64,000 nucleotides of DNA, from assembly GCA_016839515.1 (NCBI GenBank), contig JAEOUE010000127.1, positions 28,014 to 92,013 of the forward strand, written 5' to 3'. A program made the translations under genes and the position numbers. This document shows positions 2,982 to 28,036 of the stretch, piece by piece (within the stretch, counting starts at the first letter, position 1; each line of letters begins with the position of its first letter). Origin of the DNA: Candidatus Hodarchaeum mangrovi. GTDB taxonomy: Archaea; Asgardarchaeota; Heimdallarchaeia; Hodarchaeales; Hodarchaeaceae. The notes beneath the pieces are model-generated. The model was not told where the DNA came from and did not search any database. It worked only from the letters and a program-made list of their open reading frames with translations.

Positions 2982-4022
2982 TCAATAATTATTATCTTGA
3001 TTTACTGGATTTAGAATTTCCTTTTCCTGTTGAACCACCATTTCTTGGTAAGCATAATAATAAGGAAATACAAACAAAATAAAAATTAAAACGGGCAACA
3101 TGATCCATCCTGGGATTGGGTGGTTAATAGGAAGAAAATTAGAGTGAGAATCTTTCTGAAATACTCCAGATAGTTTTAATTCTATCCTAACTGCTTTGGC
3201 ACTATCAAATCCATTATAATCTGGCTTAATTAAAATAAGAACTTCATTTATTGGATTAATTTCGGAACTAGATAAGGAATAATTGATAATAAGGGTATGG
3301 TCACCGATTCCATAATACCTTTGCTGATTAACTGTCACTGAATCAATTTCCAATTGGGTAAGTGTGATACGTAATGTACATAGCAATGAAAAATCAGTGG
3401 GAGGAGGTACTACAAATAAATATGAATGAATCGCTAGACTTTTCTCAAGAAATGTATATTTTTCTGGTTCAACAATAAAATATTGACTTGCTGGAAATAT
3501 ATCCAGAGAACTTAATTCCAACGGATTATAATAATCCATAGTAATAAGCTCAGCATTTATAATTTGAAAATTAATATTGGAAGTTCTCCAATTTATAGTA
3601 GGGTCTAATATTAAAGTTATAGAAAGCTTTAAGGAGTTTTCTGTTACACTCCCGAGAGGAAGATACAGTTGTTGAGCTAAAGAAAATTGATAGGATTCAC
3701 TTTCAGATAGAGAGATTTTCTCCATCAAATAAAATGTTCTTGTTTTGAATTGACCATTAATCTTTGCTTGAAGGGTTACACTACTTATAGGTTCACCATG
3801 GTTCTGAACAGTAAAATTTAATAAAACTATTTCTCTAGATCTAGTTAAAAGTACACTACGAATATATTCTTGATCCACTGTCGAAATTTGTTCATTAATA
3901 TAAAGATTATATCGATCTATTACATTCAGATTAGTTTGTTCATTCCCTAGAACAACTTGGATACCAGAACTTACTAAAAAACTAATAACAAGAAAAAAAG
4001 TAAAAATTTCGATTCTTTTCAT
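2982..4022 (-). CDS. Exported, C-terminally membrane-anchored protein
   Basis: The 346-residue product starts with a signal peptide (KR then FTFFLVISFLVSSGIQVVLG), has a beta-rich extracytoplasmic region of about 270 residues, and ends with a transmembrane segment (WIMLPVLIFILFVFPYYYAY) followed by a short polar cytoplasmic tail. The extracytoplasmic part has the alternating strand pattern of immunoglobulin-like or CARDB-like domains but no recognisable catalytic motif. The ATG overlaps the stop of the upstream hydrolase gene in a TAATG arrangement, so it is translationally coupled within the operon begun by the giant surface protein. Likely a cell-surface component; specific role unknown. 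Confidence 0.75.
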   Translation of the reverse strand: MKRIEIFTFFLVISFLVSSGIQVVLGNEQTNLNVIDRYNLYINEQISTVDQEYIRSVLLTRSREIVLLNFTVQNHGEPISSVTLQAKINGQFKTRTFYLMEKISLSESESYQFSLAQQLYLPLGSVTENSLKLSITLILDPTINWRTSNINFQIINAELITMDYYNPLELSSLDIFPASQYFIVEPEKYTFLEKSLAIHSYLFVVPPPTDFSLLCTLRITLTQLEIDSVTVNQQRYYGIGDHTLIINYSLSSSEINPINEVLILIKPDYNGFDSAKAVRIELKLSGVFQKDSHSNFLPINHPIPGWIMLPVLIFILFVFPYYYAYQEMVVQQEKEILNPVNQDNNY

Positions 4023-4594
4023 TAAATAATTCCCTCTAAAGTTATTAATATTAAACTAGAAAGATTTAGTGCTATTAAGAATAATCCTCCCCTAAAGAAA
4101 AAGGAGTTTGTTCTTTTTTCATTCTTATTCCACTTTGATAATGAGAAATACCGCCCATTCGAGAATTCTTTCCATACATAGTGCTTGACAGGATGGTTTG
4201 AAAATATCGATGTTTTTCCAAGAGGGATACCTGGAGCTGAAAAAGCGTCTAAAATCAAGTGGGAAATCCAGCTGATGAGAGCTAACCAAATTAGAACAGA
4301 AAAATCGGATCCCTCAGTTATATAGATTAATGGAAGAAAATATAGGACTGTTAGAGGTGAATGGGAGAGAGGATGACGATATTGAGTTAATGTAAATCGT
4401 TGGCTAAGATTAATTCTCTCAAATTTTGGACTAAAACCCAGATTCATATCAAGATAATTAGGAACGAGACTAAGAAAACCCAAAGGATATGATAGTAGAA
4501 AATAGAACCATAATTCAATAGTATCATGAATAAACGTTGACAGAAAGATGTTCATTAGCGCAACAGCGAAGGTTAGATGAGTTTGATTTTTCAT
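4022..4594 (-). CDS. YdjM/DUF457-type membrane-bound metal-dependent hydrolase
   Basis: The 190-residue protein carries the signature of YdjM-like (LexA-binding inner-membrane hydrolase, DUF457) proteins: an N-terminal THLTFAVAL helix with His, a LVPNYLD turn, the RHPLSHSPL histidine motif (about residues 73-81) and SHLILDAFSAPGIPL (about residues 111-125). About four hydrophobic segments are visible, ending in LFLIALNLSSLILITL. Known family: integral membrane proteins with conserved His/Asp residues that suggest a metal-dependent phosphoesterase, substrate generally undefined. It lies 4 bases downstream of the giant surface protein gene and overlaps the next gene by one base (TAATG), so it belongs to the surface-protein operon. 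Confidence 0.8.
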   Translation of the reverse strand: MKNQTHLTFAVALMNIFLSTFIHDTIELWFYFLLSYPLGFLSLVPNYLDMNLGFSPKFERINLSQRFTLTQYRHPLSHSPLTVLYFLPLIYITEGSDFSVLIWLALISWISHLILDAFSAPGIPLGKTSIFSNHPVKHYVWKEFSNGRYFSLSKWNKNEKRTNSFFFRGGLFLIALNLSSLILITLEGII

Positions 4595-4598
4595 AGGA

Positions 4599-7500
4599 TT
4601 AATCTCGCCTCCTTCGTTTAAATAATCTTCCCCCTATAACTGTAATTGCGAAAATAATACCTGAAAGACCTATTTCAAATAATGGATTGTTTGTAAAATT
4701 ATTAATGAAGGATTTAAGATTTGAGGAACTTTCCTTGATATAAGAAGAACTCATTGATTCAGTTGTAGATATAAAAATAGTTAAAGAGTCTAAAACCAAC
4801 TCACACTCCTGATTTATATCATCAAATACTCTAATAATAACAGAATAATACCCCTGAGCTAAATATATACCAAAAAAGTAATGAGTTCCATTGTAGGATG
4901 GATTATTAAATCTTAATTCATTAATATCAATAGTAATAGACTTAACTGCATAATCATCAATAATTTCAAACGCAAAATACCAGTACTGCTCAAAATATCT
5001 ATCATTTTCTGGAATATGATTGATGGAATATGATTTGATTTGAGGAGGATAATCAGAGTTATTGAACAATCCGTGATATGCATTAACACATCCAGTTATG
5101 TCCTCAATGAAAATAGAATAGTTCCAAACTCCTGGATAAAGATCAGGGGTTTCAATTTCCCAATCAAAGTATAATCCAGAAAGCGATGAATACGTTAAAA
5201 CTCCTCTGCCCTGTATTTCTGAAGTTGAATTAGATAATATTATCTTAACAGATTCAGTATTAATAGATGAATTTTGTTTAAAACCCCTTAGTTCTAATAT
5301 AAATGAATTTCTACTAACAATAAAACTATCAATTTCAATGTTGGGAGCATACCAAGTTGATTTGTAAAAGAATTTTCCAGATGGTTGAGAATTATCCCAT
5401 GGATACCAAACTAGAATTTCAAAGGTATAATTATTTGGAGATAAAGGCAAGTTTGATACCCAACGATTCCAAAAAGGTTCAAAAGTTAATGGATAGATTG
5501 AATCATCAATAATTAGCTTAACCTGATCCACAGGAAGTGAATAAGAGTTGATTCTTAAAAAAAATTCATAAAACGATCCTTGGTAATTTATACTAATAGT
5601 ATCTAGGATAGGATCAAGTGGATTCCATTCAAGATTGAATAACCGAAGGTCATATTTGTTATTCACTGTACAGGCAAAAATGGTAATTTCCCAAATTCCT
5701 GGAGTGGGTAAGACAATTGAAGCACGATAATTTTGGTAAAAAGAACTCCAGTGAAGAATCGATATCATGCTTCCATTGATAAGAACACCAGCTTGAGCAA
5801 AGTCAGGATTAGCAACAACCTCTGCTTGGATTAAATAACCCCCAGTTTCATTTATTTTTGTTAGTGTGGGATTAAGTAGTAATTCAATTGCTTCAACAAT
5901 GGAAAAAATAATTTTTTTTGTTTTGAAGTTTCTTGCTTCATCAAATGCCCAAACTTGTAATTCATAGGAACCAAAACTGAGAACTAGCGAAATTGGCTGA
6001 TTATAGGTCTGATTATAGGTATGAACTCCTATAATATTCCATAGAATTGTTGTACCATTCGTAGAAAATGAAATCAAGATTTCCCCTGTATAGGATTGAT
6101 TATGGGGGGAATAGACTTTAAGACTTGGAGGGATAGTATCAATACTGAAATATGCACGCTTTATCACATAATTCCCAGCAGGGTCAGATACTTTCACTGT
6201 GAGATTGTATGAGCCATCATCCAAGGTGAGTTCCATTTCGTTATAACCAATAATTTCTCCATCTAGGAACAATTCTACTATATTTTCGTCTGTTAGATAT
6301 TTAATATGTACATTTTTCTCTCCATAGGTACAGTTTGTTGGAGAAAGAAGAGCTAATGAAGGAGAAGTTGTATCCACTGAAAAAGAAACAAACTCGTAAG
6401 TGATCATACCATCTTGATTAAAACCAAACACATGTAGGGTATAATCACCTTGACCTAATGATCGATAAGTCGTTTTCATCCAAGTAGAATTCAAACTATC
6501 AATAGGTTCAATAAAATAAGAATAATTATTCGCATTTCCCGAGAGAGCGATCTCAATTATTGAACCATAAATTTGGTTTAGAGGGGATAAAATTATCACA
6601 TTTGATGGGACTGAATGGATTATAATAATAAAAACACTACTAGTTGATTGTGAATAATAATTGGTAGAACTTAAGTTAGTTTTAACCCTAATATAATAAA
6701 TTCCTGGAGTAGAAAATAGTACGGAAAAATAAAAAGCTCCACTGCCTGAAGAAGAATCAACTTGGGTATTTGTTCCATTAATTTCAAGAATAATATCCTG
6801 ATTTGGAATAGGACCCGATACTTCACCAATTACTATCCCATCTATATTAGTGGATAAGTTAACATAAGTTTCACTTGGAACAGAAAGAGAAAGAAAGAGT
6901 TCTTCAAAAACTGTTATAGAAAGAGTCTTTTCATGATCATAAACGAAAGGGGCGGTAGAAATTACTTTAAGAGTCTTAATTCCGCGAGAAAAAAAGGTAT
7001 AAGAATAATTATACACACCTGCAGGTTGCCAGTCTTTCCATAACTGATTTGTAATCCAAATCTGAAATTGTTCATTACAGGTTACTTTAAAATAAAAAGG
7101 GTTGTTGACATTTCCATTAGTACTTGCTTGAATTGTAATCTGAGGGATCATCCATATCTCTGAATAGTCATATTTTGTATTAAATGGACCAACAGCTCGT
7201 ATGGTAATAGGTCCTTTATATAAAGTAGGTACAGACCAATTATAAGATCCAAATCCAGTTGCATTAAGTTTGATGGAACTGATTGGAGTCCATACAGATT
7301 CTCCACTTATTTGCCAAGAAAGATTCACAAGATCACTCAATCCACCAGCTAGTAAAATCACCGTCCATTTTCCTCCTACAATCTCTGAATCTATAAAGAT
7401 CGATAATGGAGGTCTTACGGTGAAGCTAAGAATAGGTTTATTTATAGATGAATAGAATAATTTGACTGGATTACCATTGTACTTGAACTCAATTAAATGT

Positions 7501-9392
7501 AACCCAATTTGAGCAGAACCTGTTATCACATAATCAAATAAAAAAATTCCTTCTTCATTGGTAATATTTGATCCTAAGGTACTTCCTGAAGTAGTATCAG
7601 TTATGGTTATTATCTCATTGATTAGTTTTGTACCCAATTCATCAACTAATTGTCCCCATAATCGGATTGTCTGTCCCTTGACGACTTCAGATGTATTACA
7701 TCCGATATTTTCAAAGTGAGGATTAGAAAAAATAGTTAGATAAAAATATTCGATATGAGAGTCATATCGTTGTGAACCTGAATATAAAACAACATAAGGA
7801 GAGATACCAAGGGGATGAGACAAGGGAATTTGATATTCGATTTCAACTCCGGGTGTACAGTTTTTCGTTTGAATAATTGATCCGTTTAAGAAAGTAAGAG
7901 AAATTTGTCCTTCACTAAGAGCCATAGCCCCAGAAAGAACAGTAACTTGAATAATAGTTAATGAATTTCTTGCTATACTAGTTTCATACGTTAAATCAAA
8001 AATTGTATTTCCTTTTACGATAAGAATGAAACTCTTTGTTGTATTCATCAAATAAGGAATTAACGAATGTGTGTGAAAAGCAAAGTGATGACTCCCAACT
8101 GTTGCATTTTGAGGAATTACGTATTCAATAGTTACAAAACCATCCTGATTGGTAGATTTATTAACAATTGAATAATCATCAGTAATATCAAATAATTCAA
8201 TTCTACATTCGACAGGATGTGTGTGTATATCATCTTCAGTTGCATATATAGAAAAACGTACAGTCTCTCCTTGTCGAAATTCAGAGCTATTAGTTACATA
8301 TTCAATTCGAATTTGATCCACAATATCGATATATGAAGAGACATTGGCATAAACATGATTATTACTTGGATCCAACAGCTCTGTCATAATTTGAAGATTC
8401 CCAATGGGAACAGAGCTATTTGGGTTGAAGAGATTCGTTATTGTACGTGAAGACACTAGATTCCGAGCAAATTCAAAAACTTGTGAAGTTTGATAGAAAG
8501 ACCGTAATACTAACCCAAAAGGATGATCACCAAGAATAATCGTGGTAAGCTCAAGCTGATCAATATTTCGTTGAAGCATCGAGGAGTTTAACGTTTGACT
8601 CAATGTAAATCCATTACTCATTACTGTAACAGGAATTAATGGAGAAGTGGAGGGTTGTGTCATACTTTGATCGCTTCCTGTATATTCAGCTAGGATGAAA
8701 TTAATCCCCAGTGGAGTAAATATAGGAAATATATAATCAAAAGAAAAATTATAAGTTGTTGGATCAGAACCCGCTATATAAGGGAGTGGTCCATAGGTAT
8801 GAATGACAGGATTGCCAGAGAGGTTCAAATTTCGAACAAACACATAACCATCTTTAAAGAACCAACTATAAGGAATAATAACTTCAATGGTTATAGTAAG
8901 TGATGCATTTTTATAAACAACAGAGGAATTAAGAGAAAGAGAAGTGGAAGTGGAACGATAATCACCTGGTAGATATTCCTCAAAAATAACTTCACAGTAA
9001 TTCACAGAAGATAAATAATCCCCTGAACTAAAAAATTCCCCTTGAAAAAAATGAGTACCTAAAGGATTGGTAGAGTTAACCAACCATGTCAATTGCAACT
9101 CACCATCCAGTAAAATCCCCGATATGTATTCAGAAGTATTCAAATCAGTTACTCTAACTATTCCCGTTGAGACAGGATCATATTCATGATAAACCCAAAT
9201 AAAAAAGATTATGACATCATTTTCTTTCACTATCCCTTGAGAAGCACTAATTGTTAATTCAGTACTAATTGATAATCCAAAAACCGAAGTAAGAGAAAAA
9301 TTGGGAGTGAAGAGTGATAAGAGAAAACATCCCAATATTAAAACTCGAGATAAAATTCTCTGATTCAATCCATGCATAATATTTTTCCTCAT
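4599..9392 (-). CDS. Giant cell-surface protein with repeated Ig-like beta domains
   Basis: The 1,597-residue product has an N-terminal signal peptide (VLILGCFLLSLFTPNFSL), a very long Ser/Thr/Asn-rich beta-strand region, and a C-terminal transmembrane helix (GLSGIIFAITVIGG) with a stop-transfer KRRRRD. The middle shows many repeated units resembling bacterial Ig-like/cadherin-like domains, with recurring phrases such as FSVDTTSPSLALLSP and FSIDTIPPSLKVYSP about 90 residues apart, and many N-x-S/T sites. Likely an S-layer-associated or adhesive surface protein. It is the first gene of a leftward operon. M1 at 9392 has no clear ribosome binding site, while M6 at 9377 is preceded by GAGG, so translation may start there. 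No enzymatic motif seen. Confidence 0.8.
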   Translation of the reverse strand: MRKNIMHGLNQRILSRVLILGCFLLSLFTPNFSLTSVFGLSISTELTISASQGIVKENDVIIFFIWVYHEYDPVSTGIVRVTDLNTSEYISGILLDGELQLTWLVNSTNPLGTHFFQGEFFSSGDYLSSVNYCEVIFEEYLPGDYRSTSTSLSLNSSVVYKNASLTITIEVIIPYSWFFKDGYVFVRNLNLSGNPVIHTYGPLPYIAGSDPTTYNFSFDYIFPIFTPLGINFILAEYTGSDQSMTQPSTSPLIPVTVMSNGFTLSQTLNSSMLQRNIDQLELTTIILGDHPFGLVLRSFYQTSQVFEFARNLVSSRTITNLFNPNSSVPIGNLQIMTELLDPSNNHVYANVSSYIDIVDQIRIEYVTNSSEFRQGETVRFSIYATEDDIHTHPVECRIELFDITDDYSIVNKSTNQDGFVTIEYVIPQNATVGSHHFAFHTHSLIPYLMNTTKSFILIVKGNTIFDLTYETSIARNSLTIIQVTVLSGAMALSEGQISLTFLNGSIIQTKNCTPGVEIEYQIPLSHPLGISPYVVLYSGSQRYDSHIEYFYLTIFSNPHFENIGCNTSEVVKGQTIRLWGQLVDELGTKLINEIITITDTTSGSTLGSNITNEEGIFLFDYVITGSAQIGLHLIEFKYNGNPVKLFYSSINKPILSFTVRPPLSIFIDSEIVGGKWTVILLAGGLSDLVNLSWQISGESVWTPISSIKLNATGFGSYNWSVPTLYKGPITIRAVGPFNTKYDYSEIWMIPQITIQASTNGNVNNPFYFKVTCNEQFQIWITNQLWKDWQPAGVYNYSYTFFSRGIKTLKVISTAPFVYDHEKTLSITVFEELFLSLSVPSETYVNLSTNIDGIVIGEVSGPIPNQDIILEINGTNTQVDSSSGSGAFYFSVLFSTPGIYYIRVKTNLSSTNYYSQSTSSVFIIIIHSVPSNVIILSPLNQIYGSIIEIALSGNANNYSYFIEPIDSLNSTWMKTTYRSLGQGDYTLHVFGFNQDGMITYEFVSFSVDTTSPSLALLSPTNCTYGEKNVHIKYLTDENIVELFLDGEIIGYNEMELTLDDGSYNLTVKVSDPAGNYVIKRAYFSIDTIPPSLKVYSPHNQSYTGEILISFSTNGTTILWNIIGVHTYNQTYNQPISLVLSFGSYELQVWAFDEARNFKTKKIIFSIVEAIELLLNPTLTKINETGGYLIQAEVVANPDFAQAGVLINGSMISILHWSSFYQNYRASIVLPTPGIWEITIFACTVNNKYDLRLFNLEWNPLDPILDTISINYQGSFYEFFLRINSYSLPVDQVKLIIDDSIYPLTFEPFWNRWVSNLPLSPNNYTFEILVWYPWDNSQPSGKFFYKSTWYAPNIEIDSFIVSRNSFILELRGFKQNSSINTESVKIILSNSTSEIQGRGVLTYSSLSGLYFDWEIETPDLYPGVWNYSIFIEDITGCVNAYHGLFNNSDYPPQIKSYSINHIPENDRYFEQYWYFAFEIIDDYAVKSITIDINELRFNNPSYNGTHYFFGIYLAQGYYSVIIRVFDDINQECELVLDSLTIFISTTESMSSSYIKESSSNLKSFINNFTNNPLFEIGLSGIIFAITVIGGRLFKRRRRD

Positions 9393-9682: not shown

Positions 9683-10714
9683 ATGTGGAAAAAAATGGCA
9701 AAAGCACAGACAATAATAGATGAAGAAGTCTTAGATGAAATTGAAGAACCAAAGAAAAGGAAAAAGACTAAAGAAGTAACGAATGAGACATTAACTTTCT
9801 TAGAATCTCTAAATGGAATTGGGCCAACAACTCGAAAGCGTCTTGAAGATGCAGGTTTTGGATCCAAAGAATCGATCGCACTAGCTACTAGAGCGCAATT
9901 GACTGAGATTTCGGGGATTGCAGAGAAAACTGCAACTTTACTAATTCGAGAAGCTCGTGCTCAATTTGATCTTGGTCTAAAGAAAGGAATTAGTTATCAA
10001 GAAGCAGCAAAAAAACGAATCAAATTACAATCGGGTTCATCTGTGTTTGATGAATTATTAGGCGGAGGATTTGAGTCTGGATCTATAACAGAATTAGCAG
10101 GGGAAAATGGTTGTGGAAAGACTCAAATTGTTCATCAGTTAGCAGTCAATTGCATTAATCAACTCAAAAAAGATGTAGTATGGATAGATACAGAAGGAAC
10201 ATTCCGTTTTAATCGTATTAAAGAGATGGCAGAGGATTTGGGACTAGATCATGAACATGTTTTAGAACGAATAACGATTGGACGAGCATATAATTCTGAA
10301 CATCAAATGGCGCTTACTGAAGAAGCCATTACTATGACCCCGAATATTGGTTTGGTAATTGTAGACAGTTTAATGTCAAACTTCAGGAATGAATTCGCTG
10401 GAAGAGGAACATTAGCAGAACGTCAACAATTAATTGGGAAACACCTCGCATTTATCACAAAACAAGCTGAAATAATGAACTTTGTAGCTGTTGTTACTAA
10501 TCAAGTTGCAGCTAAACCGGATGCTATGTTCTTTGGTGACCCCAATAGACCTGTCGGAGGCAATGTTGTTGGTCATACAGTTACAACAAGGATAATGATC
10601 CGTAAAGGGAAGGGGGAAAAGCGAACAGCAACTTTAACTAAAAATCCTGAATTACCAGATGGGAAAATTGAATTCGCAGTCATTGCTGAAGGCATCAGAG
10701 ATTATAAAGGATAA
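9683..10714 (+). CDS. radA: DNA repair and recombination protein RadA
   Basis: Archaeal RecA/Rad51 recombinase that forms filaments on single-strand DNA and catalyses strand exchange. After a Lys/Glu-rich N-terminal tail (about 35 residues) comes the helix-hairpin-helix domain (LNGIGPTTRKRL and ISGIAEKTA, residues 43-83). The ATPase core has Walker A GENGCGKT (140-147; Rad51 proteins usually have GEFGSGKT), Walker B LVIVD (224-228) and the L2 region with TNQVAAKPDAMFFGDPN. 343 residues is slightly longer than usual because of the tail. Start: ATG at 9683 or 9695 (MAKAQT), both downstream of the TATA box. It heads an operon with a HerA-like ATPase and an XPD-like helicase; the next gene begins about 13 bases after or overlaps the end. 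Confidence 0.95.
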   Translation: MWKKMAKAQTIIDEEVLDEIEEPKKRKKTKEVTNETLTFLESLNGIGPTTRKRLEDAGFGSKESIALATRAQLTEISGIAEKTATLLIREARAQFDLGLKKGISYQEAAKKRIKLQSGSSVFDELLGGGFESGSITELAGENGCGKTQIVHQLAVNCINQLKKDVVWIDTEGTFRFNRIKEMAEDLGLDHEHVLERITIGRAYNSEHQMALTEEAITMTPNIGLVIVDSLMSNFRNEFAGRGTLAERQQLIGKHLAFITKQAEIMNFVAVVTNQVAAKPDAMFFGDPNRPVGGNVVGHTVTTRIMIRKGKGEKRTATLTKNPELPDGKIEFAVIAEGIRDYKG

Positions 10715-10727
10715 TTTGGAATGTGGA

Positions 10728-13304
10728 ATGCGATCTATACAACTAGTAACAAAGATTTTAGAGGATAACTCTACCCTTTTACAAGTTGAAGTTCCTGATT
10801 CAATTGAGAAGTCTTTTATAGCTCCACAAGCTAATTTAATTTCTATTATTGCCATCCAACCCTCTGTTGACTTTAATGACGCATCAAATCATCTACTCTA
10901 TATATCGAGTCTTTCAGGGGTAGAAGTAATTCGACAAGTCTTTCCTATCTTAACAAAAAAACAGAAAGAAAATGGATTGAATGGATTAATGTTACTAGTA
11001 AAGATAAAAAAACCATTTACCATTCATTCAGATAAAGCACTTCATTATTTTATAAAAAAAGCCCGCAAAGACTTCCTACGCAATAGATCTACCACATTTT
11101 CACTCTTAGAAGCATCAGGTTACAAAGCTACTCTCATAACAGGAAAAAATTTGATAGAGGTTCACTATCATGGGAAAAGAATAGCTAAAGGGGTAACAGT
11201 ATTTCAAGGACATAAAGGATTTCATTCGAAATTGATTGAACCCTTTCTAAAATTGGATCGTGTGCCCTCACGGTTTATTCAAGATTATCCAGTTCAGGAT
11301 CTTCCAGTTCATCATGCCATTGGAACAAGAATCGATAATGATACTATCCCCGTGGGCTTTCCAAGATTATCAAGAGGTTCAATTTTGATAAATGGTTCTT
11401 CAAATACCGAGTTAATCCTTGTTCTTCAACAATTAATCTTTTCATTATCTCAGGATCGTTTATTAGGTCAAATTTTTGTCATTGACACTAAGAATGAACT
11501 TAATGGATTGATTAACCATATTCAAGGTACACCAAACAAACCAAAACGATTACAGATTTTTAGTTTAGGTACAAATTTTTATTTAAATTTATGTGACGTA
11601 ATTATTCCTATAGGACCCCATGAAAAGATTTCACAAGATAAAGCTGTTGGAAAAGCATGGAAAGCTCACTTGATATCGCAATTTATTCTCTCTTCATTAG
11701 ATACATCCGAGTACTTAATTTCTCGATACTCTGTACCGCTTGAATCTCAAATCCGTAAATCAGCAAACCAAACAACTTTTACACTCAATGAAGTAAAACT
11801 TTCATTTACCAATGATAGTAATAATGAAGCAACAGAAACCATTTATACTGATATGATGTCAATTGAGGCTTTAGAGGGGATATTAGAACAATTTAGATCC
11901 TTTAAAGAGATTAATTATAGTTTTTTTAAAGATCACTACCAAAAAAAATTAACTACCTCAAAAACAATCTCGTTTTTCCAATTTGGTAGTCAACCTCAGT
12001 TAATAAAAAGAGCTACTATTTTTTTCTTACTAGATTTCCTATCAAAGACATTAGAAAACTCATGTATTGTATTAACTCACGCAGATGAATTTCTGAGTCG
12101 TCGAACATCCTATCAGCGATCACGTGAGATAGTAACATCTAACTTAATGAGAGCATGTGAAGAGATTATTTCAAAAAATATTTTGTTAATCTCGAGTTCA
12201 AGTCTCCAATCAATTAGCAGTTCCTTGGACTCATTTGAGGAGATAAATAATTTAGTCTACTTACGAATGATAAATTCACAAGATCGAGAAATGCTTATGA
12301 AAAATCATCAGTTTCTCTTCAGGACATCAACATCCATAAACACTCAACAACAATGGCTAGGGGTTATGGAAGGGGAAGGATTATTATTTCGGTTCGATGC
12401 TCCTCAAAATAACGCGTATCATTTTAAGTTACAAAGTGATATTCCTATTAACACATCACCATTTAAAATTAATCCAATTAAGCCCTGGGGATCATCAACG
12501 CTTGGTCTGCCTTCAACAAAATTCGAAAGTCTAATGAATTTATTAAATGCATTAATTCAAAGTCCGATGCCTCAAAGCCAAGTATTGAACTATCTAGGAA
12601 ATTTAGGGGATCCCGAAGATGTATTAAAAACCTTTCAGGATAATGGTCTCTTTTCACGTAATTATCAAACTGGAAATCAGTTCCTTGCTATCTCAAATTA
12701 TGGTCATGATTATTACAATGAACAATTAACTAAAATTGCAGAACTTCCTCCTCCTTTATCACAGAATGACATCCTTTCAGTTTCGCAAATGTTTAAACAG
12801 TTAGAAAATGAATATAATTTTCTGGAATCAGCTGCTAAAACAGAGAAGACATTGTTTAAACTTAAAGAACTAAATATAAAGGTAAAAAACCTTATTGGGA
12901 GTACCCTAAACTACTTAAGATGCCTTAAACAGCAAGCAATTCCATGGAGAAGCTTTGCAGATTACACTGACTTATGTACAATTACTGGGATTGAATATAT
13001 GGACTTTCAGAGTCTTTTTGAGTTAGCAAACACCATTCTCAATAATCTGATGGTACAAATTGACAGAGAAAGGAAAAAGCTCACGGAAATAGAAATTAAA
13101 GAATCTCTAAGAACCTCTTCTCTTCAATTTCCAATGAGAAGCTTGGCAGATCATCTACCTTCAAATGAATTTATACATCTAAAAAATATCTCTAAAGAAT
13201 TGAATTTGCCTGAGTACCCTACAACCGGTATTCTAGATATTTTCTATGAATTACATTTACAAAATCGATCATTATTTGATGAAGTAGAGAAGAAGGGATA
13301 TTAA
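10728..13304 (+). CDS. HerA/VirB4-like ATPase fold protein with lost Walker A motif
   Basis: The layout matches HerA/FtsK-type motor ATPases: a beta-barrel-like N-terminal region (to about residue 220), then ILINGSSNTELILVLQQLI where a GxTGxGKS loop is expected, IFVIDTKNEL after it, a Walker B-like strand CIVLTHADEFL, an arginine-finger-like LVYLRMINSQDREML, and WLGVMEGEGLLFRFDAPQ as in HerA C-terminal strands. The P-loop Lys and Thr are absent (NGSSNTE) and the Walker B Asp-Glu is HADE. A winged-helix-like segment and helical region fill the C-terminal third. HerA normally pairs with NurA in end resection; here the partner would be a pseudo-ATPase. Start: the ORF opens at 10659 inside radA; I prefer ATG 10728, 13 bases after the radA stop. 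TAATG overlap with the next gene. Confidence 0.65.
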   Translation: MRSIQLVTKILEDNSTLLQVEVPDSIEKSFIAPQANLISIIAIQPSVDFNDASNHLLYISSLSGVEVIRQVFPILTKKQKENGLNGLMLLVKIKKPFTIHSDKALHYFIKKARKDFLRNRSTTFSLLEASGYKATLITGKNLIEVHYHGKRIAKGVTVFQGHKGFHSKLIEPFLKLDRVPSRFIQDYPVQDLPVHHAIGTRIDNDTIPVGFPRLSRGSILINGSSNTELILVLQQLIFSLSQDRLLGQIFVIDTKNELNGLINHIQGTPNKPKRLQIFSLGTNFYLNLCDVIIPIGPHEKISQDKAVGKAWKAHLISQFILSSLDTSEYLISRYSVPLESQIRKSANQTTFTLNEVKLSFTNDSNNEATETIYTDMMSIEALEGILEQFRSFKEINYSFFKDHYQKKLTTSKTISFFQFGSQPQLIKRATIFFLLDFLSKTLENSCIVLTHADEFLSRRTSYQRSREIVTSNLMRACEEIISKNILLISSSSLQSISSSLDSFEEINNLVYLRMINSQDREMLMKNHQFLFRTSTSINTQQQWLGVMEGEGLLFRFDAPQNNAYHFKLQSDIPINTSPFKINPIKPWGSSTLGLPSTKFESLMNLLNALIQSPMPQSQVLNYLGNLGDPEDVLKTFQDNGLFSRNYQTGNQFLAISNYGHDYYNEQLTKIAELPPPLSQNDILSVSQMFKQLENEYNFLESAAKTEKTLFKLKELNIKVKNLIGSTLNYLRCLKQQAIPWRSFADYTDLCTITGIEYMDFQSLFELANTILNNLMVQIDRERKKLTEIEIKESLRTSSLQFPMRSLADHLPSNEFIHLKNISKELNLPEYPTTGILDIFYELHLQNRSLFDEVEKKGY

Positions 13305-15058
13305 TGGTATTAAAAGAGAGTATTTTACCCCCTTCTCTGCAATTGTTTCCTTATCAATCATTAAGAAATTACCAATCACAATTCCTTCGATTTGTAGAAA
13401 ACAATCAAAAAGTAATAATTCATGCACCAGTGGGATTTGGAAAGACTATTATGGCTTTAATTTCAAGTCTTCCCCTAGTGAAGCAAGAAAATTATCAATT
13501 AATCATATTTGTCAGAACAAAAGCCCAGGTCTTTCGTGTTTTCTTAAATGAGATTTATAAAATTGCCAATTCACGGAAATATGGTTATTTAACTGCAGTT
13601 CCTCTAATCTTAAAATCGGATCTATGCCTAAAAATTGAAGAAATTCCTCAATTCCATAAAGGGATCTGTTCATCCATTCGTTGTCCACATCTTGAGCAAG
13701 CACGTTCAATTCCTGAAGAAGATTTACCAACAATAGTTGAACAAGTGACTATAACATCCCATGAAAATGATAAAATTTCTATTGAAACTTTTCAAAATGC
13801 TTTTCGTGAATTTGGTTGTCCTTATTATGTGATTAAAAGATGTATTCCTTATGCAAATATTATTGTAACTACTCAGACTTATATCCGATCTAAAAACCTT
13901 CAACCAATGTTTTCTGAGTTGTTAAATAAAAGTACATTCTCTGCTAAAATAGCAATTATAGATGAGGGTCATAATTTTTCTGCTGATATTGAAGCTGAAA
14001 TTTCACTAAGTGATCTTCAACGAGCTTCTTCAATTATACCACTGAAGATTTTCGATACTCTTCAAGATCTAATATATTTTCATAAAGGAATGGTTGAAAG
14101 ACCATTCGGATTGTCTGTTGCAGCAATCGATGCTTTTCTTGAACATGAAAAAAAAATAACTCTAATAGAAAAGACCCAACTATTAAAAATAAAAGAATTT
14201 ATCCAATCTCGAGGAGATATATGGATTTCTGAAGAATCCAAGATAATACAATTAAACCCTTTTCCCCAATCAGTATTTGAGTTTATTAACCCTTTTTTCC
14301 AACGAATAATCCTTATGTCAGGGACCTTCCAACCAATCAAATCCTATAAACTATTATATGGAATCAATCATTATGCAAATTTATCTATTCCCTCTGATTT
14401 TCAATTTAGTTTTAATAGCATAATGTACAACAGACGATTCACCTCAAGATTTACTCAACGTTCCGCTAAAACATACGAAAATATGGTAAATGTTATTCAA
14501 AGGCTACATGAATCAAATCCATTTCATACAATAGTGTTTACAACCTCACATGAATTCAAACATAAATTAATTACTCATCTTCAACTCCCTAATTATTATG
14601 TAGAAAAGATTGATTCACCACCCCATTTCTTAGATGAACTATCAGATAAAAAACACGAATTAATACTTGGAGTGCTTGGCGGACGCTTATCTGAAGGAGT
14701 AGAAATTCTGAATCACGACAATCGAAGTCTATTAACTTTAATTATCATAGCAGGGATGCCCTATCCACGTCCTGATGCTACAAATAAATTACTACGTAAC
14801 CTTTATACAAGAAAATGGGGAATTAAAATGGCGCAACACATTACTACACTACCATTGACACGGACTATATCACAAGCAATTGGTCGAGGGATCCGTTCTG
14901 AATCAGATTTTGCTGCTAGTTTAATTCTTGATTATAGAGCAATTCGTCTCCGTCCTATGCTCCCACCAACTAAGATTTTCAAGGATCTTTCTTCCTTGTA
15001 CAATGCCTATGATCTTTTTTATGCTAAAATGCGCAAAATTTTCTCACTAAAGGATTAA
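13304..15058 (+). CDS. XPD/Rad3-like Fe-S superfamily 2 DNA helicase
   Basis: A 584-residue helicase of the XPD/DinG family, which unwinds DNA 5' to 3' in repair. Visible motifs: Q-like LRNYQSQFLRF, Walker A APVGFGKT (about residues 41-48), Walker B IIDEGHNF (about 218; DEGH in place of DEAH), motif III LMSGTFQP, and motif VI QAIGRGIRSESD (about 525). The four cysteines for a 4Fe-4S cluster are C108 (DLCLK), C122 and C127 (GICSSIRC) and C172 (GCPYY), in XPD order, followed by the arch-type strand ANIIVTTQ. It appears fully active. Its ATG overlaps the stop of the HerA-like gene, so it is cotranslated with radA partners. Whether it is the orthologue of XPD or a paralogue is not resolved. Confidence 0.85.
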   Translation: MVLKESILPPSLQLFPYQSLRNYQSQFLRFVENNQKVIIHAPVGFGKTIMALISSLPLVKQENYQLIIFVRTKAQVFRVFLNEIYKIANSRKYGYLTAVPLILKSDLCLKIEEIPQFHKGICSSIRCPHLEQARSIPEEDLPTIVEQVTITSHENDKISIETFQNAFREFGCPYYVIKRCIPYANIIVTTQTYIRSKNLQPMFSELLNKSTFSAKIAIIDEGHNFSADIEAEISLSDLQRASSIIPLKIFDTLQDLIYFHKGMVERPFGLSVAAIDAFLEHEKKITLIEKTQLLKIKEFIQSRGDIWISEESKIIQLNPFPQSVFEFINPFFQRIILMSGTFQPIKSYKLLYGINHYANLSIPSDFQFSFNSIMYNRRFTSRFTQRSAKTYENMVNVIQRLHESNPFHTIVFTTSHEFKHKLITHLQLPNYYVEKIDSPPHFLDELSDKKHELILGVLGGRLSEGVEILNHDNRSLLTLIIIAGMPYPRPDATNKLLRNLYTRKWGIKMAQHITTLPLTRTISQAIGRGIRSESDFAASLILDYRAIRLRPMLPPTKIFKDLSSLYNAYDLFYAKMRKIFSLKD

Positions 15059-15064
15059 TATTAA

Positions 15065-16909
15065 TTAATGTTTTAATAATATCTTAAGAACTGGAAGAAT
15101 TTCATCTATTGTCATGATAGGAATACTGCAAAGATTGAATTTCCCAATAAGATTAAATAGAGTATATCGGACATCTAAACTATAATCTTTTAATACGCTT
15201 GGAATATATAAGACCTTAATCTCTTTATATTTTTCTTTTAAATCATTAAGAATATTAGAGGCTTCAGGTAATATTGAACTGATTGTTTCGGAGGTCAGAA
15301 TAAGAATAAAATCTTTTTTTTTGGTAATCAATCCTGGATACTTAGTCTTGTCTGATTTTACAATATTATAATTTTCTGAAAGGATATAGGGAATTTTTGA
15401 TTCATATAAAATTGGTGATAATCTTAATTCTATTTGATCGGATTTTTGTTCTTTTCCCATGATTTGAGACTTTAGTCTTTTATTCAAGATTTCAGGGTCA
15501 AAATTAGATTTATTCTTATTTTGAATAGAAAAAAACCGCTTTTGTTCATTTGTTCCTTTTCCAATTAAGAAAAATCGTGGAATCTCAACATTTAATGTAT
15601 TTAATGTTTCTATTGTGTTAGTTGCGACATCAAAGGCAATAATAATAAGGGAATGTGATGCTAAATAGTTATTAGCAGTATTTGCTATACATATAGTTAC
15701 TTTTCTTTCTGTAAAGGGTAATAAGTACCGTTTCAAATCTATTTCATTAAACGAGCTTATTGGATGTTCAACATATAGAACTCGTAATCCGATTTCTTGA
15801 AAAGTCTTCTGAAGAAATCTTGCATTGTAATAATTATGTGTTAAAACTAAAATACCCTCAGAATATTGGGAAATTAGTTTAAATAACACTTGGATCTTAG
15901 GATGGGGAATCTCCCTGTTTAAATGGATATATTCTCTCAATTTTTGAATTTTTAGATCATTTAAAAACACTGAAATCGCTTTTTGACCTAATTGATCATC
16001 TATTTGCTTTGACTTCAAACGAGATTCTAAATTATCAAAATAGTCTATAACACCTTTAAAACCCTGAGAGATTACCAAGTGTAGTAATGAATAGATTCGA
16101 TAGAGATTTCCTGTTTGAATCATTATTTTTGTATTTCCTTCCCTCTTTAAACTTTCATGAATAGCTTTAACTTGTCTAATAGGGGCTTTTAAAGTAAGAT
16201 TAATCCCACTATACTTAAGATGGTCTATCTCGAATTCCCTGAGCTGATTAAGCAGATCTAATATGAAAAAATACTCTTTCGGATAAGGAATGTAATAGGG
16301 GTGAATATTTACCTTTGATTCTCCAGTTTCATTCTGAAGTCTTTTTACTTCTTGTAACCCCAAAGCATTACACACTTGGAAAAGTCGCTCATAATTGTTA
16401 ATTCGGGTACACCCAATAAGTCGAGATTTTGATAATTTTTTAGTTATATAACGTATAGAACTTGAACCAACACATCTTTCTGCAGACAAAATAAAGATAA
16501 GGGTAAATTTATCACAATTTTCTAGATTTTTTTCTTTTAAATCATTTTTCAATGTTTTAGGAGTTGTTAATATTATCGAATAATTTTGATAATCTTTTTT
16601 ACGAGCATTTGGTAAAATTGATCCGTTCACTGCTGTAATACGATGGTCAATTAAGCCAGAAGTTTTCAATCCATTTAGGATATAATTCTGAAAATTAGGT
16701 TTTAGGATAACTAATATCTTTTGATTTTGCTTGTTTTTCTGTTTTAACATAAAAAGAGATACTAAGCTCATCATTCGTAACAAATTAGAATTTTCGCGAT
16801 AAATAACTAATATATTATGGTCAAGAAGACTTGGTAAGAGTAATTGCTCTTCAAGTGAAGGAATAAATCCTAGATTATTTATCAAATTCACGCTTTCATC
16901 CATACTCAT
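15065..16909 (-). CDS. Degenerate Hef/FANCM-XPF-like helicase-nuclease homologue
   Basis: The 614 residues can be followed along archaeal Hef (FANCM/XPF family): NILVIYRENSNLLRM where the Walker A loop belongs, SIILTTPKTLKNDL matching the VIVATPQTIENDL region (motif Ib), TLIFILSAERCVG where LIVFDEAHRAVG belongs, LIGCTRINNYERL for LIGLTASPG, then HPKIQVLFKLIS, ILVLTHNYYNARFL and a TICIANTANNYL strand for motifs IV-V. The QRRGRTGR motif VI is missing. The last 120 residues (LRLSPILYESKIPYIL to the end) align in strand order with the XPF nuclease domain but lack ERKxxxD. So both helicase and nuclease centres look inactive. It converges on the radA operon with 6 bases between stops, and overlaps the small upstream gene by 14 bases. 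Assignment is by motif pattern, not alignment software. Confidence 0.6.
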   Translation of the reverse strand: MSMDESVNLINNLGFIPSLEEQLLLPSLLDHNILVIYRENSNLLRMMSLVSLFMLKQKNKQNQKILVILKPNFQNYILNGLKTSGLIDHRITAVNGSILPNARKKDYQNYSIILTTPKTLKNDLKEKNLENCDKFTLIFILSAERCVGSSSIRYITKKLSKSRLIGCTRINNYERLFQVCNALGLQEVKRLQNETGESKVNIHPYYIPYPKEYFFILDLLNQLREFEIDHLKYSGINLTLKAPIRQVKAIHESLKREGNTKIMIQTGNLYRIYSLLHLVISQGFKGVIDYFDNLESRLKSKQIDDQLGQKAISVFLNDLKIQKLREYIHLNREIPHPKIQVLFKLISQYSEGILVLTHNYYNARFLQKTFQEIGLRVLYVEHPISSFNEIDLKRYLLPFTERKVTICIANTANNYLASHSLIIIAFDVATNTIETLNTLNVEIPRFFLIGKGTNEQKRFFSIQNKNKSNFDPEILNKRLKSQIMGKEQKSDQIELRLSPILYESKIPYILSENYNIVKSDKTKYPGLITKKKDFILILTSETISSILPEASNILNDLKEKYKEIKVLYIPSVLKDYSLDVRYTLFNLIGKFNLCSIPIMTIDEILPVLKILLKH

Positions 16910-17303: not shown

Positions 17304-17825
17304 ATGTTAACTGAAACTTATCTGATAAAAGTTCTTGACACAATTCTAAAGGAACAGGTGGAATTTCTTTCTTTTCCAGAGCTGCAGATTACCTCAAAGA
17401 ACCTTGATTTAAAGAAAATTGTTGAAAAAGATCAAATCCGAATTGATCTAGCAGCATTAAATAATTTTGATGGATCTATCTATTTCTTTGAAGCAGAGAC
17501 TACACTTTATAGTTTTCATCCAATATCCTATCGACATTTTTGTGACTTTTGTTATCTAGTTTGTCCAGCAGAAAGCTTTGACCTCCTTGATTCTGAATCA
17601 AAACAGCAGCAAATTAACTGGGCAGATGAAATGGGTGTAGGAATCATCACAATAACCTCAGATCGGAATGTTAACATCCGATTACGAGCGAAACGTCAAG
17701 AATTAACACCAGTGATTCGAAAAGAAGTTATAAGAATGATGGATCAACGCACTCGTATTAATTTTTCAACAATTCCTCTGTGGGAGAGAACTTTTGCCAA
17801 AAATTCTGAAGGAATGGGAGAGTAG
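17304..17825 (+). CDS. MmcB-like restriction-endonuclease-fold protein
   Basis: The 173-residue protein resembles MmcB-type PD-(D/E)XK proteins: IRIDLAALNNFDGSIYFFEAET (about residues 51-73) matches the usual R-x-D-L...G-x-I...E-V-K strand pair, followed by FCDFCYLVCPAESFDLL and GVGIITI, as in that family. The expected catalytic Lys of E-x-K is Glu here (EAET), so activity is uncertain. Known family: DNA-repair-associated nucleases or nuclease-like proteins. It has a good ribosome binding site (GGAG) before the ATG and is 23 bases ahead of the next gene, likely one operon. It diverges from the Hef-like unit, so it may share its repair context. Confidence 0.6.
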   Translation: MLTETYLIKVLDTILKEQVEFLSFPELQITSKNLDLKKIVEKDQIRIDLAALNNFDGSIYFFEAETTLYSFHPISYRHFCDFCYLVCPAESFDLLDSESKQQQINWADEMGVGIITITSDRNVNIRLRAKRQELTPVIRKEVIRMMDQRTRINFSTIPLWERTFAKNSEGMGE

Positions 17826-18337: not shown

Positions 18338-19513
18338 TTAATAGTTCTCATTAATTATTGATTTTTCTTTTTGGATCATTTCACAGAGGTTTTCATCTTT
18401 TTTTTTGCTAATCTCTTCTATTAACCTATTAATAAAACTTTCATCAAATTTCTCATCTTTTTCATCCGATGATTTTAAATACTGAACTTTAGAAAAATCA
18501 ATTACAACATTCGGTTCAGACGCAGTAGATGATTCACCTGATAGGTTAGAGGGAGCCTGTTTGGCAATAAGATCTTCAGAAAGAATTGAGGTTGTTAGAG
18601 GCAGGGGTAGGTTCCCCTCTTTCTCTAAATAAGTATTAAAATATGTATTATTATGATTTTTAATATTTTGTACTTCTTCAATTGGGATGTTTACCTCTGG
18701 ATCAATCAATCCAGAATTAGCTTTCTCATTAGATTGATTTAGATCTTCTAATATGAATTCTTCCTCTGAATCAGGAAAAAGGTCAAAATTTTTTTCAATT
18801 TCAGATTTATTATCTTTAGTGTTAAAATTATCAGTTTCAGAGTCTAAAATTTTATTATTTGTGATATTGGGCTCATTTGGAATTATAATTTCATGAGGGG
18901 ATTTTGGGGGAGAAGGTGGATCCTGATTATCAATTGCTAAAATACGTGAATTAAATTTGAATTCTGATAATCCTGATTTAGATACGGCTGAAATCACTAA
19001 TCCAGGGATAACTTTTAGTAGAGTTGTCTTAAAATCTTCAAGACGTTCTTTTAGGGATAGATGAAATTCACCTAATTGTCTAGGATTTTTTATTAATTGC
19101 AGATAATTCAGATTAGGAAAATCAAGTGTCAGGTTAAAAATTGTTTTAAACGCGTCCTCTGAAACTCGGAATTCAAAGTTCGTAAGATTTTTTACTACAG
19201 ATAGTCGAAAATTCTGCGGTTTTGCATCTACTTGAAAATCTATTATTACTGTTGTTCGGTTCTCTTTAAAAGAATAGATTATCATAGCTCCTGGAATTTC
19301 TTCAGGATAGAAAATTTTTTCACTCATTTCAAGATTAGAAAAAGAAAAAAACTGATGTTGCTGTTTTAACTCAATTTCCTCTAATATAAGCCCTATAAAG
19401 TACGCTACACCTCCTGTTAAAAAGACAATTATAATTCCAGTTTCACTAGATAAATAAATGACTACTCCGAAGAGAAATCCAATTATTGTAGTTAATGTAC
19501 TTCGACAGATCAT
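18338..19513 (-). CDS. Membrane-anchored protein with long acidic cytoplasmic tail
   Basis: The 391-residue product has an N-terminal pair of transmembrane helices (LTTIIGFLFGVVIYLS and GIIIVFLTGGVAYFIGLIL), a compact alpha-beta region of about 150 residues (to about 210) with no motif I recognise, and then about 180 residues of low-complexity Asp/Glu/Asn/Ser/Pro-rich sequence that is likely disordered. It ends with a short charged helix. It lies 41 bases downstream of the MrfA-like helicase gene and on the same strand, so it may be cotranscribed. Function unknown. Confidence 0.65.
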   Translation of the reverse strand: MICRSTLTTIIGFLFGVVIYLSSETGIIIVFLTGGVAYFIGLILEEIELKQQHQFFSFSNLEMSEKIFYPEEIPGAMIIYSFKENRTTVIIDFQVDAKPQNFRLSVVKNLTNFEFRVSEDAFKTIFNLTLDFPNLNYLQLIKNPRQLGEFHLSLKERLEDFKTTLLKVIPGLVISAVSKSGLSEFKFNSRILAIDNQDPPSPPKSPHEIIIPNEPNITNNKILDSETDNFNTKDNKSEIEKNFDLFPDSEEEFILEDLNQSNEKANSGLIDPEVNIPIEEVQNIKNHNNTYFNTYLEKEGNLPLPLTTSILSEDLIAKQAPSNLSGESSTASEPNVVIDFSKVQYLKSSDEKDEKFDESFINRLIEEISKKKDENLCEMIQKEKSIINENY

Positions 19514-27834: not shown

Positions 27835-28036
27835 GAAAATTGAAATTATTCCTCCTTTAAGATATATTTTCAAAACAAGGCTATCAGATACTTCATGGGA
27901 TTTGATTGATCTCTGGTTTATATGAAACTATTGATCAATAAGAACAGAGAATTCACCTTTAATCTAATATAATATCAATTTACTATTCAAAAAAGTAATA
28001 AGTCAGTGTCTCTATCAGATTATGTAGGGTTTATGC

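Follow-up and report, generated by a model that had tools for sequence, protein, structure and literature searches.

A HerA/VirB4-superfamily protein without a usable conventional ATP site encoded beside a RadA paralog and an XPD/DinG-like helicase in Asgard archaea

The 64,000-nucleotide stretch of contig JAEOUE010000127.1 analysed here (positions 28,014 to 92,013; hereafter the window) from Candidatus Hodarchaeum mangrovi encodes, between genes for a RadA paralog and a helicase, a P-loop-less HerA/VirB4-superfamily protein of 858 amino acid residues that we call pseudo-HerA (10728-13304, + strand). It has the fold of the superfamily, the catalytic motifs are lost throughout its family, the family is under purifying selection in a second Asgard class, and it is linked to the same recombination genes in both classes. 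We consider it fairly likely, with a probability of roughly 0.6, that pseudo-HerA is the non-motor scaffold of a dedicated Asgard recombination complex, a RadA-paralog/helicase module. The host genome is a Hodarchaeal metagenome-assembled genome (MAG), 91% complete and 6% contaminated.

The longest ATG frame spans 10659-13304 (881 residues). The ATG at 10659 is in frame and would overlap radA, and the start at 10728 agrees with the starts of the orthologs (MRSIQLVTKILEDNST...). Residue numbers below are counted from the ATG at 10659, as in the ortholog alignment. The frame is open and conserved in nine orthologs with 40-48% identity and is not a chance frame. A gap of 13 nucleotides separates it from the radA stop (10714), and its own stop overlaps the start of the helicase gene as TAATG (13302-13306).

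Pseudo-HerA was placed in the FtsK-HerA/VirB4 superfamily by its RecA-like core fold, using a structure search and profile comparison with controls. Pfam gave no match for the window protein, and together with NCBIfam, PADLOC and a sequence-only search of the PDB it gave nothing usable for the core; matches to HepT (NCBIfam, E = 0.009) and acetylcholinesterase (E = 2.8) were taken as chance. DUF87 (Pfam) was matched by only two of 18 relatives, weakly (best E = 0.013). A profile of these 18 relatives aligned with canonical HerA of the host's class over 352 columns (94.6%, E = 7e-8), and the same profile gave at most 2.5% with six control families from the same loci. The AlphaFold2 model of the window protein (mean predicted local distance difference test score 77.6, predicted template modelling score 0.52) was compared with the PDB by Foldseek; HerA structures of several organisms came top (E = 6e-11, probability 1.00), followed by VirB4 and TdpA. 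The N-terminal region of the model, where canonical HerA has its HAS barrel, contains an alpha/beta domain (residues 27-171), and the HerA profile alignment begins downstream of it. A C-terminal winged-helix-like domain (residues 619-694; 12513-12740, +) also occurs in the family of the second Asgard class.

Both ATP-binding motifs are missing from this fold. The loop equivalent to Walker A reads NGSSNTE (11391-11411, +) in place of GxxxxGK[ST], mostly CGS[SD]xxE[LV] in orthologs and CGGxxxxR in the second-class family. GK[ST] is absent at the P-loop position from every member of both Asgard branches with that region sequenced. Elsewhere, G-K-[ST] occurs nowhere in the window protein and only as two stray occurrences, both outside the core, in its relatives. 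The Walker B equivalent is THADEFL (12075-12095, +), which HHalign pairs with HerA 'EEAHNF'; the acidic catalytic pair is lost throughout the Hodarchaeal family, where relatives read THA, PHA, TDA, TNA or TPA. Other core positions are kept. In the strand matching HerA 'viDPHGEY' (IFVIDTKNELNG; 11472-11507, +) D276 is invariant and E280 nearly so, and D542-R543 (12282-12287, +), aligned with the HerA 'NPxD' segment, is conserved in 90% or more of the family. The HerA P-loop mutant K154A does not bind nucleotide and is perturbed in binding of double-stranded DNA (PMC5715905). Since this single substitution abolishes nucleotide binding, normal ATP use by pseudo-HerA is very unlikely, and the motifs predict a non-hydrolysing HerA-superfamily protein without a usable conventional ATP site.

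The conservation of the P-loop-equivalent loop itself in each family, together with the retention of D276 and E280, would suit a protein that retains ATP use at a non-canonical site. We regard this as very improbable, because no member has a lysine-serine/threonine pair at the site, the Hodarchaeal family has no normal Walker B, and those second-class members that keep an aspartate at the end of the Walker B strand (VVILD) are still without a P-loop. A sequence-only reading of the window had taken the same frame and start, with TAATG coupling to the helicase and near overlap with radA, and had described a HerA-like strand order in a protein whose P-loop and Walker B (HADEFL) were degenerate. 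The ortholog starts, the controlled profile match, the structural model and the relatives all agree with it: a HerA/FtsK fold is present, and the window protein has no second P-loop that could be functional.

Of the 59 genomes of the host's class, 14 encode pseudo-HerA. These are without exception Hodarchaeales: 12/12 of the genus and 2/2 of the sister family. A wider search gave distant relatives, one of them belonging to a second, more divergent branch. That branch occurs in another Asgard class, where 27 of 47 genomes, representing 10 of 13 genera, carry it. The two branches align with each other over 440 columns, extending into the winged helix (98.3%, E = 1e-14). Within the searches made, no match fell outside Asgards. 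A profile search of contigs with the ortholog alignment retrieved nine Heimdall-/Hodarchaeota records, and with the single protein none. Genome G157 encodes two proteins of about 1300 residues (L160:5564-9577 and L161:5482-9375) that combine transmembrane (TM) segments with a HerA-like core lacking a P-loop; they match both pseudo-HerA families (87-97%), and their neighbours differ. Other orders of the class have large proteins adjoining homologs of the helicase (L140, L141, L142); that these are hidden pseudo-HerA found no support (hhalign at most 3.6%).

Loss of catalytic motifs and faster divergence (about 40-48% identity, against about 70-74% for RadA and 60-68% for the helicase) could be taken for the decay of a gene. 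This explanation is contradicted by the results and has a negligible probability: long intact frames persist in many genomes, several residues are invariant, and the ratio of nonsynonymous to synonymous substitution rates is 0.12-0.14 in two close second-class pairs, similar to neighbouring genes and indicating purifying selection. It is unusual for selection to maintain an ATP-dead HerA/VirB4-type family in two or more Asgard classes.

The helicase gene (13304-15058, +) encodes a protein with intact Walker A (VGFGKT) and DEGH motifs and with cysteines that are possible ligands of an iron-sulfur cluster. The order radA-pseudo-HerA-helicase is found in five genomes and the pair pseudo-HerA-helicase in three more, namely a sixth genome and two of the sister family; the junctions are abutting or short. 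In G038, G039, G044 and G046, radA and the helicase gene are adjacent without pseudo-HerA between them. The gap in G039 holds a 28-nucleotide stretch resembling the 5' end of pseudo-HerA (score 40, against a best of 33 in 200 shuffles), and the three-gene order is therefore probably ancestral.

In the second class, 21 loci carry the genes on one strand, in full order as far as the contigs extend: a242, b149, the RadA paralog, a Zn-ribbon/helix-turn-helix protein, c206, the XPD/DinG-like helicase, TM192, a short open reading frame (most loci), pseudo-HerA, a Hel308-like helicase, d530 with TM segments, a RadB-like protein, TM317, a Rad51-like protein and an XPG-like nuclease. All 21 loci have the XPD/DinG-like helicase, and 18 of the 19 with sufficient flank have the RadA paralog, so the survey of Asgard operons that had been suggested places both with pseudo-HerA in another class. 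The RadA, XPD-like and RadB-like proteins of the window match their second-class counterparts with 97-100% profile probability. Because the helicase also adjoins pseudo-HerA in the second Hodarchaeal family and both partners stand in the second-class operon, the RadA/helicase linkage is older than the genus. An incidental operon position, with a structural role unrelated to the neighbours, would accord with the loss of linkage in several members of the host genus and with paralogs located elsewhere; the same companions in two Asgard classes and the deletion scar in G039 make it distinctly improbable. A defence-system reading was also rejected, PADLOC giving only the DinG-like helicase and weak generic ATPase matches.

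The second-class operon also bears on the main rival, according to which pseudo-HerA is an ATP-dead VirB4/TraG-like part of a membrane machine for DNA uptake or exchange, comparable to the crenarchaeal Ced system, with the recombinase and helicase processing incoming DNA. The second-class protein has a predicted N-terminal TM hairpin, its model matches VirB4 TrwK of R388 best, with HerA and TrwB also found, and its operon encodes several TM proteins. Hodarchaeal paralogs are divergent to membrane genes, and Ced employs HerA/VirB4-like proteins with TM helices (PMC11868833). TM proteins are thus linked to pseudo-HerA, and in Pfam they match no membrane channel family of type IV secretion systems (T4SS) or Ced. 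Against a transfer machine, neither a pilin nor VirB6/CedA nor any other hallmark of transfer was recognised at the loci, no active partner ATPase of such type is linked, and no TM segment is predicted in Hodarchaeal pseudo-HerA. On balance we judge such a transfer machine unlikely.

The RadA gene of the window (9683-10714, +; Walker A GENGCGKT intact) is a paralog divergent from the three other RadA/Rad51 genes of the genome. It scores 246 bits against the Rad51 family and the others 289-311 bits; with three closer matches elsewhere, we rejected it as the housekeeping RadA. In a tree, which included one spurious open reading frame row (Hop_L185), the RadAs linked to pseudo-HerA form their own groups apart from other copies. 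Orthology of the linked paralogs of the two classes is not shown by this tree, whose branches are long. The sequence-only reading had placed pseudo-HerA between RadA and an XPD-like helicase; the placement stands, and the labels need correction, RadA being a paralog and the helicase more exactly a member of the XPD/Rad3/DinG superfamily. One Hodarchaeal MAG (G000) holds five RadA/Rad51-family genes (contigs C125, C138, C289, C41, C153), which bears on RadA duplication in Asgards.

The host genome has two canonical HerA-NurA pairs at other loci; the only NurA genes found, at C150 and C335, stand next to canonical HerA, and no NurA adjoins pseudo-HerA. Pseudo-HerA as a replacement for HerA was thus rejected. 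As these pairs and the three closer Rad51-family genes lie elsewhere, the module is not HerA-NurA resection, and the earlier framing in terms of end resection ahead of RadA loading is not supported. The lower-scoring RadA and the separate HerA-NurA pairs therefore indicate a dedicated set beside the general machinery. Rings that mix active and inactive ATPase subunits occur in biology, and pseudo-HerA could be the regulatory subunit of such a ring, the active subunits being a HerA- or VirB4-type ATPase from another locus. Candidates are L067, an active HerA/VirB4-like protein, and the HerA of the two canonical HerA-NurA pairs. We nonetheless find mixed rings improbable, since no active HerA or VirB4 gene is linked to pseudo-HerA in the examined loci and all 57 genomes of the class that were searched have DUF87 proteins, while most of them lack pseudo-HerA. 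L067:547-2709, from the same genus, represents a 720-residue family with an intact P-loop (GMTGEGKS).

In the scaffold reading that we prefer, pseudo-HerA would probably form a ring or plate, having kept the RecA-like core and winged helix and lost the usual ATP binding. DNA would be held by the winged helix and perhaps also by the ring, the linked XPD/DinG-like helicase would open the strands, and the divergent RadA paralog, together with its RadB-like partners, would load onto the exposed strand. The scaffold would keep the helicase and the RadA paralog together, probably near the membrane. We infer oligomerisation, DNA binding, direct contacts, this order of action and the membrane placement in the host. 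Several observations weigh against the scaffold. The HerA profile match is weak with the orthologs only (19%, E = 1e-3) and with the second-class family alone (8%), and because the orthologs alone give only 19%, it is the paralogs that carry the signal. Foldseek superpositions of the window protein have a high root-mean-square deviation over multi-domain chains. Pseudo-HerA is located elsewhere in G038, G044 and G046 while radA and the helicase gene remain adjacent, so the linkage is not obligatory. Hodarchaeal paralogs of pseudo-HerA accompany membrane genes, without RadA or helicase, and gene linkage does not prove physical contact.

A wider picture is an ancient, membrane-anchored Asgard recombination machine whose platform is the ATP-dead HerA/VirB4-type protein. 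It would have a RadA paralog of its own, RadB-like proteins, an XPG-like nuclease and two helicases, one of them XPD/DinG-like, and would act in genetic exchange or membrane-tethered DNA repair in the lineage that stands closest to eukaryotes. We put it forward as a tentative possibility.

Other genes surround the trio in the window. Downstream of the helicase lies a Hef-like protein (15065-16909, -; PRK13766, E = 1.9e-20) whose motifs I and II (DEAH) are lost in 9/9 orthologs. Judged by its motifs it is a second ATP-dead protein of the island, and our impression is that it suits a complex in which several old motors have turned structural. The sequence-only reading had noted neither this protein nor the membrane side, consisting of the TM hairpin and the TM proteins of the conserved operon. 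A RadB-like RecA-family ATPase (1843-2547, -) has an intact P-loop (GDTGGGKS) and a counterpart in the second-class operon. The adjacent multi-TM protein (962-1834, +) adjoins pseudo-HerA in L023 and occurs in paralog islands; its family has members in 12 of the 57 genomes of the class, every one of them Hodarchaeal, and this is almost the set of genomes that carries pseudo-HerA. Two further membrane proteins, one YdjM-like (4022-4594, -) and one secreted or TM (2982-4022, -), have relatives that flank pseudo-HerA paralogs: in four genomes (L029, L032, L034, L036) the paralogs are divergent to them, with an AAA ATPase and a multi-TM relative of 962-1834 nearby. The window also encodes a Cas4-like nuclease (208-1011, +; E = 1.4e-8) and an island-conserved protein with an N-terminal TM hairpin (18338-19513, -).

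Three more island genes were noted. A protein of 173 residues (17304-17825, +) is island-conserved, with a possible PD-(D/E)XK-like pattern (RID..., FFEAET) and weak family matches. One of 143 residues (2540-2971, -), between the RadB-like and membrane genes, is likewise island-conserved and has no convincing family match. A secreted protein of 1597 residues with immunoglobulin-like repeats and a C-terminal TM segment (4599-9392, -) is divergent from the radA operon and conserved alongside it.

Like HerA of the HerA-NurA system (Pfam DUF87), pseudo-HerA has a RecA-like core, the same strand order, the vIDxxxE strand and a DR-type segment, and HerA gives its best PDB matches; unlike HerA, it has no Walker A, Walker B or adjacent NurA, and it has an added winged helix. 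VirB4/TrwK, TrwB/TraG and CedB/CedD belong to the same superfamily, and the TM hairpin and top VirB4 match of the second Asgard family recall them. In contrast to these proteins, pseudo-HerA is ATP-dead, is without recognised T4SS or Ced membrane partners, and stands in an operon rich in recombination genes. The archaeal RadA/RadB set with XPD and Hel308/Hef helicases consists of the same protein families, also co-encoded here; the module differs in a divergent RadA beside other copies, in the dead translocase and the membrane proteins that share its fixed operon, and in a dead Hef-like neighbour. The parts of PMC12722695 that we compared describe a second clade of RadA that some Asgards have and discuss RadA duplication in Asgards in relation to the origin of meiosis; those parts mention no operon or HerA-like partner.

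Each component thus belongs to a known family, and the combination of an ATP-dead HerA/VirB4 protein, RadA paralog, XPD/DinG-like helicase, RadB-like proteins and membrane proteins was not found in the open-licence papers searched. The fixed company of pseudo-HerA, with its dedicated RadA paralog, XPD/DinG-like helicase, RadB-like proteins, nuclease and membrane proteins, amounts to a module that can be tested. Should its function be in recombination or DNA exchange, it would inform the question of how recombination was organised in the archaea nearest to eukaryotes. The strictly conserved second-class operon suggests a DNA-handling complex that is so far undescribed and probably linked to the membrane.
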